From Hydrogenophaga sp. (GTDB lineage: Bacteria > Pseudomonadota > Gammaproteobacteria > Burkholderiales > Burkholderiaceae_C), in NCBI RefSeq assembly GCF_030373245.1, contig NZ_JAUCZF010000009.1, positions 124,001-188,000 of the forward strand: a stretch of DNA of 64,000 nucleotides. The letters run 5' to 3'. A program made the translations under genes and the position numbers. Positions 46,259 through 54,799 of the stretch are shown piece by piece (positions within the stretch are counted from its first letter, which is position 1; each line of letters begins with the position of its first letter). Under the pieces are notes generated by a model. That model saw only the letters and a program-made list of their open reading frames with translations. It did no database searches and was not told the origin of the DNA.

Positions 46259-46801
46259 TCATGCGAGCACCAGCCAGGCAGTGAGGCCGAAGCCCGCGTT
46301 GTAGAACGCGTGCACGCCCACCGCCGGCCATACGCTGCTGAACCGCTCACGCAGGTGGCCAAACACGAGTGAGGGCACGGCCACCGCCAGCGCCCAGGCC
46401 AGCGGTTGCGCGCGCAGGTGCAGGGCCACGAAGGCAACGGTGACCAGCGCGTTGGCGAGCGTCAGCGGTCCCAGACGCATCGGCCGCCCGCCGCGCTGCA
46501 ACCAGACCAGCGCCTGGCCTTGCAGCAGACCGCGAAACACCAGCTCTTCCAGCAGCGGCTGCACCAGCACCAGTGACACCCAGGCCCACGCGCCAGGCGG
46601 CGCGCGCAGGTGCGGCCCCAACAGCAGGCCCAGTGCCAGCCAGACGGGCAGGGCGGCCATCATCGCCAGCGCCAGATGGGTATCCGGCGGCCAGGTGAAC
46701 AGGGGCGGGTGCGGTCGGGTGACGCCCAAGGCCTCGGCCAGCGTGGGCGACGCGGGCGCGCTGGGCGGATAGCTCGGGTCTGGTGGTTGAGGAGAGGTCA
46801 C
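46259..46801 (-). CDS. CPBP (glutamic-type) intramembrane protease, MrtJ-like candidate for JDVT-CTERM sorting
   Basis: A small polytopic protease of the CPBP/ABI family. The best start is GTG at 46801 (MTSPQPPDPSYPP), giving 180 residues, because the longer frame to 46903 runs through the terminator of the upstream gene. Active-site motifs are E85-E86-x3-R90 (LLEELVFRG), a His in VAFVALHLRAQ and HAFYN near the C-terminus. Helices are at about 43-62, 72-90, 105-130, 135-150 and 160-178. From memory, proteobacterial JDVT-CTERM systems use one such protease. Two tagged substrates lie 3.6-6 kb upstream on the same strand. A general CPBP role is the alternative. Confidence 0.72.
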   Translation of the reverse strand: MTSPQPPDPSYPPSAPASPTLAEALGVTRPHPPLFTWPPDTHLALAMMAALPVWLALGLLLGPHLRAPPGAWAWVSLVLVQPLLEELVFRGLLQGQALVWLQRGGRPMRLGPLTLANALVTVAFVALHLRAQPLAWALAVAVPSLVFGHLRERFSSVWPAVGVHAFYNAGFGLTAWLVLA

Positions 46802-46879
46802 AAAAGCGATCTTCCCATGTTGTCGTTGCCTTGCATCCCGAGGGCTTGCGTGGCCAGGGGCCGCTGAGCATTCGCCCAG

Positions 46880-46910
46880 AAAAAAGGCGCCGCCTGTTGC
46901 CATCGGCGCC
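46880..46910 (-). terminator. Terminator after the LVIVD-type lipoprotein gene
   Basis: On the minus strand a 7-bp stem GGCGCCG/CGGCGCC with a loop of about 11 nt (46886-46910) is followed by six T (46880-46885). It lies 46 bp beyond the gene's stop codon, so the lipoprotein gene and the protease gene are transcribed separately. Confidence 0.85.
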
Positions 46911-46955
46911 TGCGGATCACCCTGCCTGCCGGAGCAGGCGGGGTTTGGCCAGTGC

Positions 46956-49900
46956 TTACTTCAGGACGCTGAGGCCGCCGGCTCCAGCCGCGACATAGAC
47001 ACGCCCGTTGTTGATGGCGGTTGCCGCTGCGCCACCGACCACGCCCTTGATCGCCATCACGGATGGTGCCGCCACGTTGCTCCAGTCGAGCTTGACCACA
47101 CCGGCTGGGCCGTAGGCCACGTAGAACAGCAGCCTGGGCGAGGTCAGCGTGTAGGTCCTGCTGCCGTCGCTCAGCAACTGGTCGGCCGGGAAGTATTGCG
47201 ACGTCATGTAGAGCGCGCCACCGTCCACGTCCGCATAGGGCGACGGCGTGGTCACCACACCCATGGCGTCCTGGACCTCGCCGTACTTCTGCAGCTTGAA
47301 GTAACCGGCAGCGGTCGGGCGACACTCAGCCACGCCACCCTGCTTGGCGCTCAGCTTCGTCACGTCTGTCACGGCCAAGCAAGCATCCGGTGCCTGACCG
47401 ACGGGCACCACGGCCGGACGCTCCTCGGTGGCGGGACGGATCAGATCGGCCATGCGGTAGGCCACCAGACCAAAGCTGTCGTAGCTGAAGTAGGCAACGT
47501 TACCGACGATATGCACATCGACACTCTTGCCGTCGGCCGAGCCAAACGCATTGTCATCGTCGGACTTCACGGGCTCGAAGGTCTTGATCAGCTTGTCGAT
47601 GCCGAGATCAGCAGGTTGACCGCTGGCCAGGAAGGCGGTCATGTCGACCACTGAGATGCCGTAGGCACCGGCGGCCACCACCGCGTAGGTCTTGCCCGTC
47701 ATGGTGTCGTTCCACAGTTTCACCGTGGCTGCGCGACCCAGTGGGGGCTTGCCCTGGTTGCCTGCGCCGTCGGAGTCACCGAGGTTGGCGACCACGCTGG
47801 CGTCTGTGCCACCTGCTGCCGTGGTGTCGTAGATGGTCAGCCCGTTGTCACCGTCCGCCACGATGGCGTATTTGCCGTGGAAGGTCACGCCGTAGGCATG
47901 GTCCTGCCCTTCGACTCTGACCAGGCCAATGCTGCCGGCCTCGGTGTTGTGCTCGTAGATGCCACCCGCTGCGTCCAGGATGGCGGGAGAACCAACCTGC
48001 GCGCTGCCCCCCGTGACGGCCGACACATCCACTCGGCGCATGCCCAGGCTCTGGCTCATCACATAGGCCTTGTTCGGGTCGCTGCCGAAGCCCACCTTGA
48101 AGGCGTGGGGCGTGGGCTGCACGCCGGTTGGCGAAGTCGCGTACTCATCCTGCAAGGTATTGGCCACCAGTTTCAGGGTGTCGATCGGTGTGAAGCCATC
48201 GGCAATGGTCCACACGCTCACGCCGTGCGGGCCGTCGGCCAGGTACAGGTGGTTGCCCGAAACGGTCACGCCTTCAGCATGGCCGATGGCAATCGGCTGG
48301 GTCGCTGACCCGTCTTCTGCTGCGCCCACTTCGTTGGTGCTCACCAGGTTCACCGGCACATCGAAGCGGCTGGCCACCGCCGTTCCCGAGCTCTGGCCCA
48401 GGTCAATGAAGTCGATGAAACTCACGCCACCGGCTCCGGATGACTGCACTGCGTCAACCGTGCCTGCGCCCGCCGTGTTCATGGTGGGCATCAGGAAAAG
48501 CGAGCCGCCATGGCCGTTGATCTCCCCCGTCACCAGCCTGACGGGTGCCGTGTAGTTGTTGCCCGCAGCGGTCAGGAACTTGGGTAGCGATTCGTCGCCC
48601 ACCGGAACGGGCGTCATGTCGTACGACGTGACGAACTCGTAGTCGGGCCAGAACACCTTGGTGTCCGTATCGTTGTCGAACGATGATGGGGGTGCCGGAT
48701 TCTTCCAGGAGGTGGCTGGATCCTCGGCGCCGCTCACCACCACCAGACCCGCAAAGTGGTCGGTGTAGTAGGCCATGTAACCGCTGGCACCATCCGGCAC
48801 CACGCGCACATCCATCACGCCGGCTTCCTTCAGCATGCCGGAGCCGAAGTGCGACAGGATGCCCTTCTTGTCCACGTTGATGGGTGGTTCGTCCGGGCCA
48901 TGCGCCGGGGCTGCCGGCACATAGCCCGCGTACACAGGGGCGGCGGGCGCCGTGACATCCACAGCAACCAGACCTCCCAGCCCATAAGCGATGTAGGCCA
49001 TGGTCTTGCCACCGATGACCTGCACGTCCATGGTGCGGGCGTTGTAGTAGTACTTGCCGTAGCGGTCGAACTCGGCCCAGGGATTCCAGCTCAGGCCGCC
49101 GGTGCTGCTCTTGTTGTCCAGTTCGGCCGCTGCTTGCAAGTAGGTCGGCATACCCTCAGCAAGATCAACCGCGTTGATGTCGATGGGGGTGAAGCCGCCA
49201 GCGACAGCGGTTCCCACCGTTGCGCCGGGACACGCGATCTTGCGCTGCGGATAACCAAACCAGTCTTCCTGAGCGTTGTTGGTGCAATCGGCGTACAGGT
49301 TGTAGGCACCCACTGCGGTCAGATCGACGGGATCGAAGATGCCCATGCCCAGGAAGCCCAGCGCCGCGTAAAGCCTGCCGTCCGCCATCCTCAGGCTCAT
49401 GGGTCCGCCCCAAGGGTTTTCGCCCGCGTAGGTCAGCGTGTAGGCCTGTACCGTCGGGCTGTCGATGGTGAGCGCGCCGTCGCCGGTGGCACCGATCAGG
49501 TTGGCCAGGCTGGTCTTCTGGATGCCATAGGCCTCGTTGGCGATGAACAGCTGGTCGTCTGTGGTGTCGGGCGTGCCCCTGTCGTCCACCAGAAGGTCAT
49601 TCACCACACCGTCGGTGTGTACCGTCTCGGGCTCGGAAAATTCGTTGCCTCCGCCGTCCACGGTGGTGAATGCGGGCGCCGTGTAGCCCACGCTCATGGT
49701 TCGCAGGTAGCTCATGGCCACAGGGTTGGTGATGTCCACCACCCCGATGCCCTTGTCACCCATGGACAGGAGCGCGTAGCTTGCCCCTGCGTAGTCTTTC
49801 ACCACGGTGATGTGCTGGATGTAGCCAGGCACGGTGATTTCGGTTGTAGCGCCCTTGTTCATGCCGACGGGCGTTGCCGCAAAGCGGTTGGCCATGGTGT

Positions 49901-50171
49901 ACAGCGTCCACTGGGTAGTGCCGTCGTCGTACAGCGCCACATCCTGCGTGCCACCCCCAATCTGAGCGGCCAGGGTGTCGATGTTGGCCTCGATGATGGT
50001 GACGGGTGTGGGCGTGGTCGACGACCCGCTTCCGCAGCCGCTCACGAGCAAAGCCACCGCGGCCGCCATCGCGATGCCAGCCTGAGCCATAGGTTGCATA
50101 TGCCGCTTGAACCGCGCTGGGTTCGCGGCCTCATGGGGCTTGCTCAAGGGCAATTTGACGCTGACGGACAT
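46956..50171 (-). CDS. Large LVIVD-repeat-type beta-propeller lipoprotein
   Basis: A 1071-residue envelope protein. A strong AGGAGA sits 7 bp before the ATG at 50171. A long n-region (residues 1-30) leads to the hydrophobic core and lipobox LLVSGC (Cys at 46). The body is built of repeats in which a hydrophobic strand ends in a V-D-(I/V)-(T/S) turn: GVVDITNPVAMSYLR, LVAVDVTAPAAPVYAGY, GISVVDMTAF, GVVKLDWSN. These are typical of LVIVD or YVTN-like propellers. It has no C-terminal sorting tag, unlike the next two genes. Function is unknown; a surface scaffold is a reasonable guess. Confidence 0.78.
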   Translation of the reverse strand: MSVSVKLPLSKPHEAANPARFKRHMQPMAQAGIAMAAAVALLVSGCGSGSSTTPTPVTIIEANIDTLAAQIGGGTQDVALYDDGTTQWTLYTMANRFAATPVGMNKGATTEITVPGYIQHITVVKDYAGASYALLSMGDKGIGVVDITNPVAMSYLRTMSVGYTAPAFTTVDGGGNEFSEPETVHTDGVVNDLLVDDRGTPDTTDDQLFIANEAYGIQKTSLANLIGATGDGALTIDSPTVQAYTLTYAGENPWGGPMSLRMADGRLYAALGFLGMGIFDPVDLTAVGAYNLYADCTNNAQEDWFGYPQRKIACPGATVGTAVAGGFTPIDINAVDLAEGMPTYLQAAAELDNKSSTGGLSWNPWAEFDRYGKYYYNARTMDVQVIGGKTMAYIAYGLGGLVAVDVTAPAAPVYAGYVPAAPAHGPDEPPINVDKKGILSHFGSGMLKEAGVMDVRVVPDGASGYMAYYTDHFAGLVVVSGAEDPATSWKNPAPPSSFDNDTDTKVFWPDYEFVTSYDMTPVPVGDESLPKFLTAAGNNYTAPVRLVTGEINGHGGSLFLMPTMNTAGAGTVDAVQSSGAGGVSFIDFIDLGQSSGTAVASRFDVPVNLVSTNEVGAAEDGSATQPIAIGHAEGVTVSGNHLYLADGPHGVSVWTIADGFTPIDTLKLVANTLQDEYATSPTGVQPTPHAFKVGFGSDPNKAYVMSQSLGMRRVDVSAVTGGSAQVGSPAILDAAGGIYEHNTEAGSIGLVRVEGQDHAYGVTFHGKYAIVADGDNGLTIYDTTAAGGTDASVVANLGDSDGAGNQGKPPLGRAATVKLWNDTMTGKTYAVVAAGAYGISVVDMTAFLASGQPADLGIDKLIKTFEPVKSDDDNAFGSADGKSVDVHIVGNVAYFSYDSFGLVAYRMADLIRPATEERPAVVPVGQAPDACLAVTDVTKLSAKQGGVAECRPTAAGYFKLQKYGEVQDAMGVVTTPSPYADVDGGALYMTSQYFPADQLLSDGSRTYTLTSPRLLFYVAYGPAGVVKLDWSNVAAPSVMAIKGVVGGAAATAINNGRVYVAAGAGGLSVLK

Positions 50172-50360
50172 GGAAGTCTCCTGTAAAAACCGAACGGAAA
50201 ACGCACTACCCAGTTCAGTATTTCTCTTCCATCGGCTGGCGCATTGACTGGCGTCAATCGGCTCCAGATTCGTGCTGGGCCTCTACACCGGGGAACCTGG
50301 TGCGCGTTGTTCTTTGGACGCACGGTCGCGACGGCGATGCAGTGCAAAGCCGCCGACCAA

Positions 50361-50395
50361 GAAAAAAACGCCGGGCGTTGCCGCGCGGCGTTTTG
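50361..50395 (-). terminator. Terminator after the frameshifted tagged-protein gene
   Basis: Minus-strand stem AAAACGCCG/CGGCGTTTT (50365-50373 and 50386-50394) with a 12-nt loop, followed by a run of seven T (50362-50368 complement). It lies about 40 bp past the stop codon. Confidence 0.88.
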
Positions 50396-50437
50396 GAAAA
50401 AGTCCCGAGGCGCATGGGCCCCGGGGAATGGCAGGTT

Positions 50438-52041
50438 TCAGCTGTGGCGCGAGCGGCGGCGCAGTCCCCAGCCAGCAAGTCCCAGCGCGGCCAGCAGCGG
50501 CAGCATCGGGTCGATCGGCGGGTTGCCCGGGACGGCGGTGCAGCCACCACCCTGGTCAACCGTCGCAGGCGGCGTCACTGGCGGTGTCACCGGTGGAACC
50601 AGGGGTGCTGGTTCTGCAGCGAGGAAGGTCGGCGCCACCTGCGAGTCGGCCACCACCGGGATGATGCGGATGGTGAACGTCGATCGGGAGGTCATGGCGT
50701 CGTTGTCCAGGTCATCACCGACTTTCACGATGTAGTTGATACCCAGGTTCAGCACGTCTTCGATGTGAGACACCGCGTAGAGTGGGTCATTGCCCCAGGC
50801 CTCAAGCGTGGCCGCCGGGATGGGGGTGAACCCGCCGTCGTTGTTGCTCACCCACTGGCTGCCGTTCCACCAGGCTTGCAGCACCGCGTCGGTGTTTGGG
50901 TCGTTGTCGTCGTCGAAGAAGACACCGCTCGGCTGCCAGGTGCTGGGCAGCCAGTCGCCGAACAGGGTGGTGTAGTTGCTTGGCAAGACGGTGGTCGATT
51001 CGATCGTGTCGGAGTTGATCAGGTCGGGGCCACCAACGAACGGGTTGGGCGTGGTGCTGCATGGCGGGACTGCGCAGCTTTGCGTCACGTCGAATCCTGC
51101 CGTCCGCGTGTCGAAGAAGCCATTCGCGGGGAAGTTGGCGTCGATGGCGCCAAACAGTCCGTGGGAGAAGGTGGCCAGCCCGTCGCCGTCAAACAGGTCG
51201 GATCCGTTCGGTGCTCCCATGGATCCGGACGACCAGCCCTCGCCCCTGCCCAGTGAAATGTGCAGCTTGTCGGCGATACCCAGGGCACTGGCCGACTGAA
51301 AGCCGGTGCCCGTGCCGACGCCCACCACGATCCTGTACCCCTTGAGCCGCTTGCCGGTGTAGTTGTTGATCTTGCTGAACACTTGGTAAGGTGTGAGGCC
51401 GCCACCGTCGCTCACGTTGAACACCATGTCGATGGGCTTGTCGCTGGCAGCGCCGTCGGCCACTCCTTCCACCGTGGCAGGCTGCATCGCAATCTTGAAC
51501 CGCTTGTGCGACTGAAAGCCGCTGGAGCAGATGACGGGCTCGGGTGCGGTGCTGTTGAGGTAGGCTCCAGGCCGCTGGTGCTGACGTCAAATCCCAGGTA
51601 CGAAGAGTTGATCAGGCAGTTTTGCGGCTTGCCGTTCTTGGTCTGGGTGTCGCCGTTGACTGCCTTGATGCCGCTCGGCTCACCGACCGGCCAGACCTTG
51701 CCGGTGACCTTGGCCATGACGCTGCCCATCGCATCCTTCACCGAGCTGATGAAGCTCTCGCCGCTGGCCATGGCGGCGTAGGCGCCGGTCGACTTCTCGA
51801 ACGAGCCGAAAGTGGTTGTGCCGTCGGCTCGAACCTGTTGCACGTCGACGTTGTCGAGGTTCCAGGCGCCGACGCAGGCTTCGGCTGCACCCGATGTGCC
51901 GCACGACCCTAGGAAGGTGGGTGCAACGGTGGGGTTGCTGTCGGCAATCACACCCGCCTGGGCGCTGGTTGCGAGCAACATGGCCGCGACCGCAAGGCTG
52001 ACGGGGTTGGTTTTGCGGGAGAGTGGGGATGCATATTCCAT
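50438..52041 (-). pseudogene. Secreted JDVT-CTERM-like tagged protein, interrupted by an apparent -1 frameshift near 51567
   Basis: Two overlapping minus-strand frames make one protein. The first (from ATG 52041) has a signal peptide (MEYASPLSRKTNPVSLAVAA...SAQAG) and reads sensibly to ...SYLGFDVSTSG. The second continues GAYLNSTAPEPVICSSGF... to a C-terminal tag: GGGC, DPMLPLLAALGLAGWGL, then RRR. The switch falls at GGCCTGGAGCC (complement of 51563-51573); one added G would restore a protein of about 534 residues. The body (DGGGLTPYQVFSKINNYTGKR) resembles choice-of-anchor secreted proteins, tentatively. It may be a sequencing error, a true pseudogene or a phase-variable site. Confidence 0.75.
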
Positions 52042-52193
52042 GGGGCTGTTGTCCTGCTCAAAGAAAACGGAAATGAAGAAAAGGGCTCACTTCCCATGTG
52101 CGCAAATACCAGTTGGGGGTATGTGGGAACCCAGGCTGCGGTTGAGACATGTCAACTGCACTGCGCCATTGGGGTGACGTGATCCGATGCGGG

Positions 52194-52230
52194 GGAAGAA
52201 AAATGGCCACCGCCGAGGCAGTGGCCATTT
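52194..52230 (-). terminator. Terminator after the second tagged-protein gene
   Basis: Perfect 10-bp stem AAATGGCCAC (52201-52210)/GTGGCCATTT (52221-52230) with a 10-nt loop; on the minus strand it is followed by a T-rich run (52200-52196). It lies 37 bp past the stop codon at 52267. Confidence 0.88.
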
Positions 52231-52266
52231 CAGGTACTGGGGCAATGCGCCCCAGGCCATGGGGCA

Positions 52267-54579
52267 TCAGCTGCGACGTGCGCGGCGCAGGCCCCAGCCG
52301 GCCAGGCCAAGTGCGGCCAGCAGCGGCAGCATCGGGTCGATCGGCGCGTTGCCCGAAGCGGTTGTGCAGCCACCACCACCGTCGGTGGTGCCAGGCGTGA
52401 TGCCAGGCACGGTGCCATCGTCAACTTCCACGATGTCGGCGCTGCGGAAGGCCGCAGCGGAGCCCGTGGTGTTTTCGGTGTTGAAAGTGCCATAGACACG
52501 GCCGCCGTCGGGACGGGCCACCACTTGAGCCTCGAAGGCATAGTCTTCGTCGTCAAACAGGCTGCCGCGCTCGTTCGAGTACTCGACCGCCGGTATGAAG
52601 GTCTGGCCGCCATCCTTGCTCACCGTGAGGTAGATGCCAAGGTCATCGCCCCCGTTCGGGTCGAACGGCGACACGTTGGTCTGCGAGCCGTAGGCCACGA
52701 AGATCACGTTCTTGGCCTGACACAGCGTCGCATCCAGCGTCGTCGGATCTGCCGGGTTACCGGTTGGGCAGCCGACCGGCTGGCTTGGCGGTGTCCCGAA
52801 GAAGCGCGGCTCACGCACGTTGATGCGCGTGTCGGTGATGTTGGTGATGTTGTACGGCAAAGCCCAGCTACCGGTGCTGGTCGCAGGGTCAAACGTGTAC
52901 TTGCGCACCCAGAAGTTGTAGTTGTCTTGCTGTGCCCACATCTTCACCAGGTCGTTGGTGTAGTTGTAGCCAATCCACAGCTCGTCACCCCGCAACACCC
53001 CGCGGTGGGCCAGGGCGTTTTCGGCGAAGTTCACTTCCGTGCCGTCGCCCAGGCCGCTGTCAGTCGCGGTCAGGAACGGCGCGCGGCTGCTGATGTTTTC
53101 TGGCAGCGCGTTGGCGAGACCAATGGCGGTGGTGTAGTCCGAAGTCGCGCAGTTGGGATCGACGGCTGGGACCATGTTGGTGCTGGCCAGCCCACCCATA
53201 CCGCGGCGCACCACGATGTCGGACGGGCCGCCTTTGTCAAACAGGCCTTCCTTCCAGAAGATTGCAATGTTGACGCCACCGGGTGAAGCCACGCTGCCGT
53301 CCTGCGTCAGGAAACGCACGCGACGGGCATTTTTCAGCGGGTTGCTGATGACGCAGCCTGGTGTAGCGGCTGGGGGTGTGTTGTATGGGAAGTTCAGGTA
53401 ACGAACAAACTTGCCTGAGTCCAGACCCTGCGAACCCTTGGTTTCCTCCCAGGCCAGCACCGAGGTCGGGCCCACCATGAAGATGTTGGGCCGCGAAGCA
53501 CCCGCATTGCCTTTTTCGACCTCCTGACCCGCAGCCTTGCCGTCCAGATTGGTGCCGTCGGCGCCGAACACATTGGAGATCTGGCCGGTTAAGCCATACG
53601 TGCTGCCATCCCAGTTGTCGGTCACACGGTAAGCCTTGCTTCTGGCAGTACGGGGAGTACCTTCACCCGGCGCAAGGGTGATCACCCCGCCGGCCAGGTC
53701 CGCGTAGGTGTACCAGACATCGGTGCCGCCGGTGACGTTGGCGCCGGAAGCGCCATCACCCGGGCCGTCGGCGTCGCCAGGCTGCAGGCCTTCTGGATCC
53801 TCTTGCCACGAGATGTTGAAGCGACCCGTGGAGGTGGTCGAGTTGTAATTGCCACTGCTGGCATCTTGCTTGGCATCGCGCTCGCCGTTGCTCAATTGAA
53901 CGGCTGAGCGCCATGTCACGCCGTTGTTGGTCGAGGCAGCCATCCAGGTGCAAGAAAACGGAATGATGCGGTTCTCGCGGTCCAGGTAGCGGATGGCGCG
54001 CTGGTTCGCATTGGGGAAGAAATTCGGGTCGGTGCCGTCCGCGACGGGCGCGTTGGCATCGCTCAAGTCATTGTCCGGGCAGTACTTGCTGGTCCAGGTC
54101 AGCACCATCACGGGACCGCTGGTCTTGATGTTGGGCTTGTCGATGTCACCATAGAAAGGGAGACGCCCGGTCACCGGATCGCCGCCTTGCCATGCGGTCT
54201 GAATACTGTATTTGTCAGCCGACTTCGAGACGTTGACAGCAGCGCTCCAGTCGCTGTCCACATCGCAGGTTTTGCGTGGTGTGGTTGTGGTGTCTGTCTC
54301 GGGCGTTGGGGTGCAGTAGCGAACGAAGATATCGCGTGCTTTGCGTTCTTCCTGCGCCTTGGTGTCATAGATTGTGGGCGCCGCGTCAAAGGTATCGCCA
54401 TACGCCATGACCAAGTTGCCGTTGGAGCCAGCGCGCTGGATTTTGGGCTTGTGGCCGCTGCCACCCGTGCTGATGCTGATCTCGGGCTTGAGCTGGATCT
54501 GCGTGACGATCGCGGCGTAGGCCATGCCGGCCACCGCCACGGTACCCAGCAGAGCCAGCTTCTTGCGCTTGAATTTCAT
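52267..54579 (-). CDS. Secreted protein with JDVT-CTERM-like C-terminal sorting tag (choice-of-anchor O-like)
   Basis: A 770-residue exported protein. A GGAGG Shine-Dalgarno precedes ATG 54579. The signal peptide is MKFKRKKLALLGTVAVAGMAYA. The body looks like a sialidase/BNR-type propeller: repeated TWTSKYCPDN, GVTWRSAVQLSNG, FNISWQEDPEG and SKDGGQTFIPAVEY, with Ser-x-Asp-x-Gly-like boxes (SKDGGQTF; TNNGVTW). The C-terminus is GGGGC, then DPMLPLLAALGLAGWGL and RR, almost identical to that of the neighbouring frameshifted gene. The expected fate is export, membrane retention by the tag, cleavage near the Cys by the CPBP protease, and surface anchoring. The family name is tentative. Confidence 0.8.
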   Translation of the reverse strand: MKFKRKKLALLGTVAVAGMAYAAIVTQIQLKPEISISTGGSGHKPKIQRAGSNGNLVMAYGDTFDAAPTIYDTKAQEERKARDIFVRYCTPTPETDTTTTPRKTCDVDSDWSAAVNVSKSADKYSIQTAWQGGDPVTGRLPFYGDIDKPNIKTSGPVMVLTWTSKYCPDNDLSDANAPVADGTDPNFFPNANQRAIRYLDRENRIIPFSCTWMAASTNNGVTWRSAVQLSNGERDAKQDASSGNYNSTTSTGRFNISWQEDPEGLQPGDADGPGDGASGANVTGGTDVWYTYADLAGGVITLAPGEGTPRTARSKAYRVTDNWDGSTYGLTGQISNVFGADGTNLDGKAAGQEVEKGNAGASRPNIFMVGPTSVLAWEETKGSQGLDSGKFVRYLNFPYNTPPAATPGCVISNPLKNARRVRFLTQDGSVASPGGVNIAIFWKEGLFDKGGPSDIVVRRGMGGLASTNMVPAVDPNCATSDYTTAIGLANALPENISSRAPFLTATDSGLGDGTEVNFAENALAHRGVLRGDELWIGYNYTNDLVKMWAQQDNYNFWVRKYTFDPATSTGSWALPYNITNITDTRINVREPRFFGTPPSQPVGCPTGNPADPTTLDATLCQAKNVIFVAYGSQTNVSPFDPNGGDDLGIYLTVSKDGGQTFIPAVEYSNERGSLFDDEDYAFEAQVVARPDGGRVYGTFNTENTTGSAAAFRSADIVEVDDGTVPGITPGTTDGGGGCTTASGNAPIDPMLPLLAALGLAGWGLRRARRS

Positions 54580-54799
54580 GAAATGCCTCCAGTCGATGAA
54601 AGGGAAACGTGCGGAGATAACTCCTACACGTACCAGTATCCAATCGTTACGGAAGGTGACCATTGACACAAATCAAGGCCGCAAAAAGCCAGAGTTCGAG
54701 GCCTACATCGGGGAACTGTTTCTGCGCGAAACGCGCGGCGATCGTGCAGCCGCGACAGCCCGCCTGGGGTCGGCGCGATCAAGCTGCGAGAATCCGCCG

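Follow-up and report, generated by a model that had tools for sequence, protein, structure and literature searches.

The gene at 52041-50438 on the minus strand of the window (the whole 64 kb stretch of DNA that was analysed) is a single choice-of-anchor F gene with a JDVT-CTERM tag, and it is a frame-broken member of its family. Its export signal and its tag lie in different frames, hence not on one polypeptide. As the probable cause we favour inactivation by one recent natural frame-changing indel over an error in the consensus. The break is an ordinary one, due either to recent damage of the gene or to a slip in sequencing, and not a novel type of switch.

The frame switch and the two halves of the gene

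Both strands of the window were scanned blind with a frameshift-aware coding Viterbi model, which comprised six frames and a non-coding state, was trained on the codon usage of long ORFs from the same genome and treated start/stop overlaps of neighbouring genes as cheap. Eight same-strand frame changes were found, seven of them being ordinary start/stop gene overlaps, and the sole change without a gene-overlap explanation was at 51565 (-). The mean codon score of the upstream frame was 0.200 before this site (47th percentile of 427 sampled genes) and -0.337 past it, lower than in all 427 genes, and the downstream frame scored 0.214 after it (53rd percentile). The scan peak and the swap of codon scores between frames at the same place confirm that a frame switch is present in the sequence, as held by the initial annotation, which had described a single gene whose reading frame shifts by a net one base. 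The shift needed to join the frames is formally -1. The programmed shift of prfB (AGG..CTTTGAC; L073:19173) was recovered by the same detector as a positive control, and was also found in the control genome used below.

The upstream frame begins with a signal-peptide-like stretch (MEYASPLSRKTNPVSLAVAAMLLATSAQAGV), and its real coding stops near 51565, the remaining ~50 codons up to the TGA being out-of-frame. The downstream half alone matched the choice-of-anchor F family (NF033657) with 174.7 bits over profile positions 63-306, above the cut-off of 50 bits; the split gene scored 189.6 bits for this family in the genome search. The domain is not contained in a single ORF, profile positions below about 41 being encoded in the other frame. 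The tag was identified as JDVT-CTERM (NF033191) with 40.8 bits compared to a cut-off of 27, and the Cys, the helix and the Arg cluster are all present. The earlier reading, with the signal peptide in one half, the tag in the other and a TGA just upstream in the downstream frame, was thus upheld in all three respects (Table 1). The break had also been placed within about 20 bp. The codon likelihood does have a flat peak of only a few bases, at 51567-51562, but its 95% set is wider than was claimed.

Table 1. Coordinates of the split gene, its parts and the neighbouring genes in the window
Feature	Position	Strand	Remarks
Choice-of-anchor O protein	52267..54669	(-)	NF040591, 459 bits; intact upstream neighbour; own JDVT-CTERM tag at 52276-52380
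Tag-end direct repeats	52151-52480 and 50331-50660	(-)	Ends of the anchor O and anchor F genes
Upstream frame of split gene	51412..52041	(-)	ATG at 52041, TGA at 51414-51412; N-terminal signal-peptide-like stretch and beginning of choice-of-anchor F region
TGA bounding the downstream frame upstream	51587..51589	(-)	Last stop before the open stretch
Downstream frame of split gene	50438..51586	(-)	Remainder of choice-of-anchor F domain and JDVT-CTERM tag; stop at 50440-50438
Frame-change interval	51537..51585	(-)	95% of codon-likelihood; flat peak 51567-51562; in hypervariable linker
JDVT-CTERM tag of split gene	50453..50551	(-)	Invariant Cys, hydrophobic helix, Arg-rich end
LVIVD-repeat protein	46956..50171	(-)	Lipoprotein-like; intact; next cluster gene; dN/dS 0.16 vs G814
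MrtJ	46259..46951	(-)	JDVT-CTERM glutamic-type intramembrane sorting protease; intact; 104 bits vs cut-off 75; EELVFRG and HAFYN motifs

Homologues, the linker and the state of preservation

The question whether the orthologues are naturally two genes was answered in the negative, since all nine homologues (L010-L015, G136, G555 and G807) have a single unbroken frame. The six named ones come from two Thiobacillus, Vibrio, two Cocleimonas and Sulfuricurvum, and G807, from the same genus as the window, carries an unbroken homologue of 42% identity. The window copy therefore shares the domain and an above-cut-off tag with its family and differs from it in being written in two frames. Two real, separate genes would indeed both be open and coding, as the two frames are; however, the family domain spans the break, and the second half begins within conserved motifs, with its first internal ATG (51487) located after them, inside conserved sequence. 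No obvious ribosome-binding site was seen at this ATG, and the downstream half has no export signal. This arrangement is extremely improbable and was rejected on account of the fused homologues.

When both halves were aligned with the homologues (seven of them for the upstream half), the last conserved stretch of the upstream half was ...NCLINSSYL, just short of its end, and the downstream half was found to start right before ...PVICSSGFQSHKRFK. The segment between them counts 7-23 residues in the homologues and is unalignable. Judged from this alignment, the break sits in a tolerant, hypervariable linker that borders the conserved domain. Owing to this variability, several bases and positions fit the change equally, as do one base lost and two gained, and the single missing G proposed earlier is not the only solution. 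As to whether the break parts two domains, the AlphaFold2 model of the intact homologue L010 has a mean pLDDT of 59, with values below 50 in the stretch around the site.

Both halves are well preserved. Among the residues invariant in six homologues, 91 of 94 are retained (22/23 upstream and 69/71 downstream), and the downstream half keeps, over its length, all 47 of the residues invariant in seven homologues. The split gene contains no additional stop and no second frame break. With this conservation and with codon usage intact in both halves, the break is either recent or not real (an assembly error), which agrees with the earlier view that it had to be recent or artefactual since both halves looked normal. 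In the upstream half, the motif GKVWPVGEP has a Val where the six closest homologues invariably have an Asp (GKDWP/GKDYP); it is the only change of an invariant residue there.

Indel, consensus error or recoding

An error of base calling or assembly, in which the gene of the organism would be intact and the consensus off by one base, is possible but the less probable of the two main readings. Neither half being decayed otherwise is what such an error predicts, and a single-base artefact would leave an identical picture; the completeness of the assembly is 90.85%, and a finished relative, too, shows isolated frame breaks, such as one in sucA at a CCCC run, which is implausible as a genuine lesion. 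Against this stand the frame-switch counts, obtained from 760 kb of sampled stretches of the assembly, window included, and, as control, from 400 kb of a finished congeneric genome. There were five strong calls in the former (prfB included) compared to two in the latter (prfB and sucA), and this low number, close to the control, does not indicate pervasive indel errors in the assembly. Moreover, no run longer than two bases is present at the site, unlike other candidates, which lie at CCCC runs. A recent natural indel in the organism's own DNA therefore remains the reading that we prefer.

The frame break of the finished relative G005 (L052:16829 (+)), at a CCCC run in an apparent sucA (2-oxoglutarate dehydrogenase E1), is probably a sequencing error. 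At L070:15697 (+) (G000:C3), a simple shift was rejected: the gene for an FMN-dependent dehydrogenase (FMN_dh) lacks its first ~50 residues, with a TGA directly before the match, and is likely a gene remnant. The call at L064:4832 is weak and covers a short stretch only. One more clean candidate for a frame switch in the genome was seen at L076:11342 (+) (G000:C7; context CCCCTGGG), where neither half had a Pfam match.

The initial annotation had also raised a slippage or phase-variation site at a G run. The longest run at the site is of two bases, the first homopolymers of three bases in the interval being the CCC runs at 51544 and 51538, and a search for tandem repeats at the site was negative. 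Nor does the upstream frame contain, near the site, an X XXY YYZ slippery heptamer, partial matches only being present, and the RNA downstream is no more structured than its shuffles (z = +0.44). For want of a long homopolymer, a repeat, a heptamer or a stable RNA structure, there is no support for slippage or phase variation, nor for programmed frameshifting. Phase variation often targets surface proteins, and this general knowledge is what speaks for a reversible on/off toggling of the protein by slipped-strand mispairing; given the short runs and the lack of a repeat at the site, we hold it to be exceedingly unlikely.

Programmed -1 ribosomal frameshifting, which would join the frames and yield tagged and untagged forms from one gene, agrees with the formal sense of the shift and with the position of the break between the exported and the tagged half, from which two differently sorted forms would result. 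We nevertheless consider it very unlikely: besides the heptamer and the RNA structure being missing, the linker is unconserved and the nine homologues need no shift, so that the split arrangement was not found to be conserved in relatives, whereas the detector does recover the genuine programmed shift of prfB. The split gene resembles prfB (release factor 2) in being read in two frames, and the same detector finds both in the genome, but the conserved CTTTGAC site and the upstream SD-like element belong to prfB and nothing similar is present here. An occasional -1 shift at a non-canonical site, giving mainly a secreted stub without tag and, in small amounts, a tagged form sorted to the surface, is a most improbable variant of the same idea. 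Even taken together, these exotic readings are improbable.

Under the preferred reading of a recent natural indel, the intact gene would have encoded an exported choice-of-anchor F protein with a JDVT-CTERM tag, presumably a substrate of MrtJ, and one frame-changing indel in the variable linker would have inactivated it. From the normal start, translation would now yield an exported stub of 209 residues, untagged and scrambled at its end, and the tagged half would have neither an export signal nor a convincing start of its own. For this last reason, surface sorting of the protein is almost certainly lost. Automatic annotation of this locus would produce either two hypothetical genes or one pseudogene, and in both cases a JDVT-CTERM/MrtJ substrate would go unrecognized; the case is mainly one of annotation hygiene.

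The JDVT-CTERM/MrtJ cluster and its relatives

The cognate sorting protease of the tagged substrate, MrtJ, is present in the genome, two genes downstream of the split gene. Apart from the split gene, the cluster consists of open genes that evolve under purifying selection, with dN/dS of 0.16-0.22 compared to G814. The distribution of MrtJ/JDVT-CTERM pairs within beta- and gammaproteobacteria is sporadic, and the myxosortase MrtX, to which they are related, has been demonstrated experimentally (PMC11980579). As in the pair related to MrtX/MYXO-CTERM (PMC11980579), an MrtJ with its catalytic motifs is clustered here with tagged substrates; the difference is that the locus has two tagged proteins and an LVIVD lipoprotein-like gene, with a third tagged protein, a protease, on another contig. 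This third JDVT-CTERM protein is a subtilase-like serine protease (L040:9544-11292 (-), G000:C1), away from MrtJ.

A match to MrtJ was found in only 6 of 67 genomes of the genus. The nearest, G814, shares 93.3% protein identity in the LVIVD protein and 95.7% in MrtJ, with dN/dS of 0.16 and 0.21, respectively. In the cluster of this sister species the LVIVD gene comes straight after the anchor O gene, and the anchor F gene is missing. No close copy of the latter was found in the other genomes of the genus searched, and a DNA search of plasmids gave no match. From its absence in the G814 cluster and from the lack of a close copy in the genus genomes searched, we infer that the anchor F gene is an accessory, dispensable substrate, the loss of which can be tolerated, and its absence from a close relative makes a real loss-of-function mutation plausible. 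G814 appears to carry two anchor O-LVIVD-MrtJ clusters (L096, G814:C541; L097, G814:C513), both without anchor F.

The tag-coding ends of the anchor O and anchor F genes form direct repeats, 80% identical in DNA over 138 bp, that bracket the anchor F gene, and the tag and terminator after anchor F resemble those that follow anchor O in relatives. This suggests that recombination between the tags may have brought the anchor F gene in or removed it. Among close relatives, tagged substrates of the system are gained and lost but the sorting protease is retained, and the similar tag DNA on both sides of the accessory gene could aid such an exchange. Outside the genus, the Vibrio homologue (L011) is encoded in an anchor F-MrtJ gene pair. 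In Sulfuricurvum (L015:4111-4647 (+)), the gene after anchor F encodes an exosortase-family protein and not MrtJ, the same domain being accompanied there by a different sorting enzyme.
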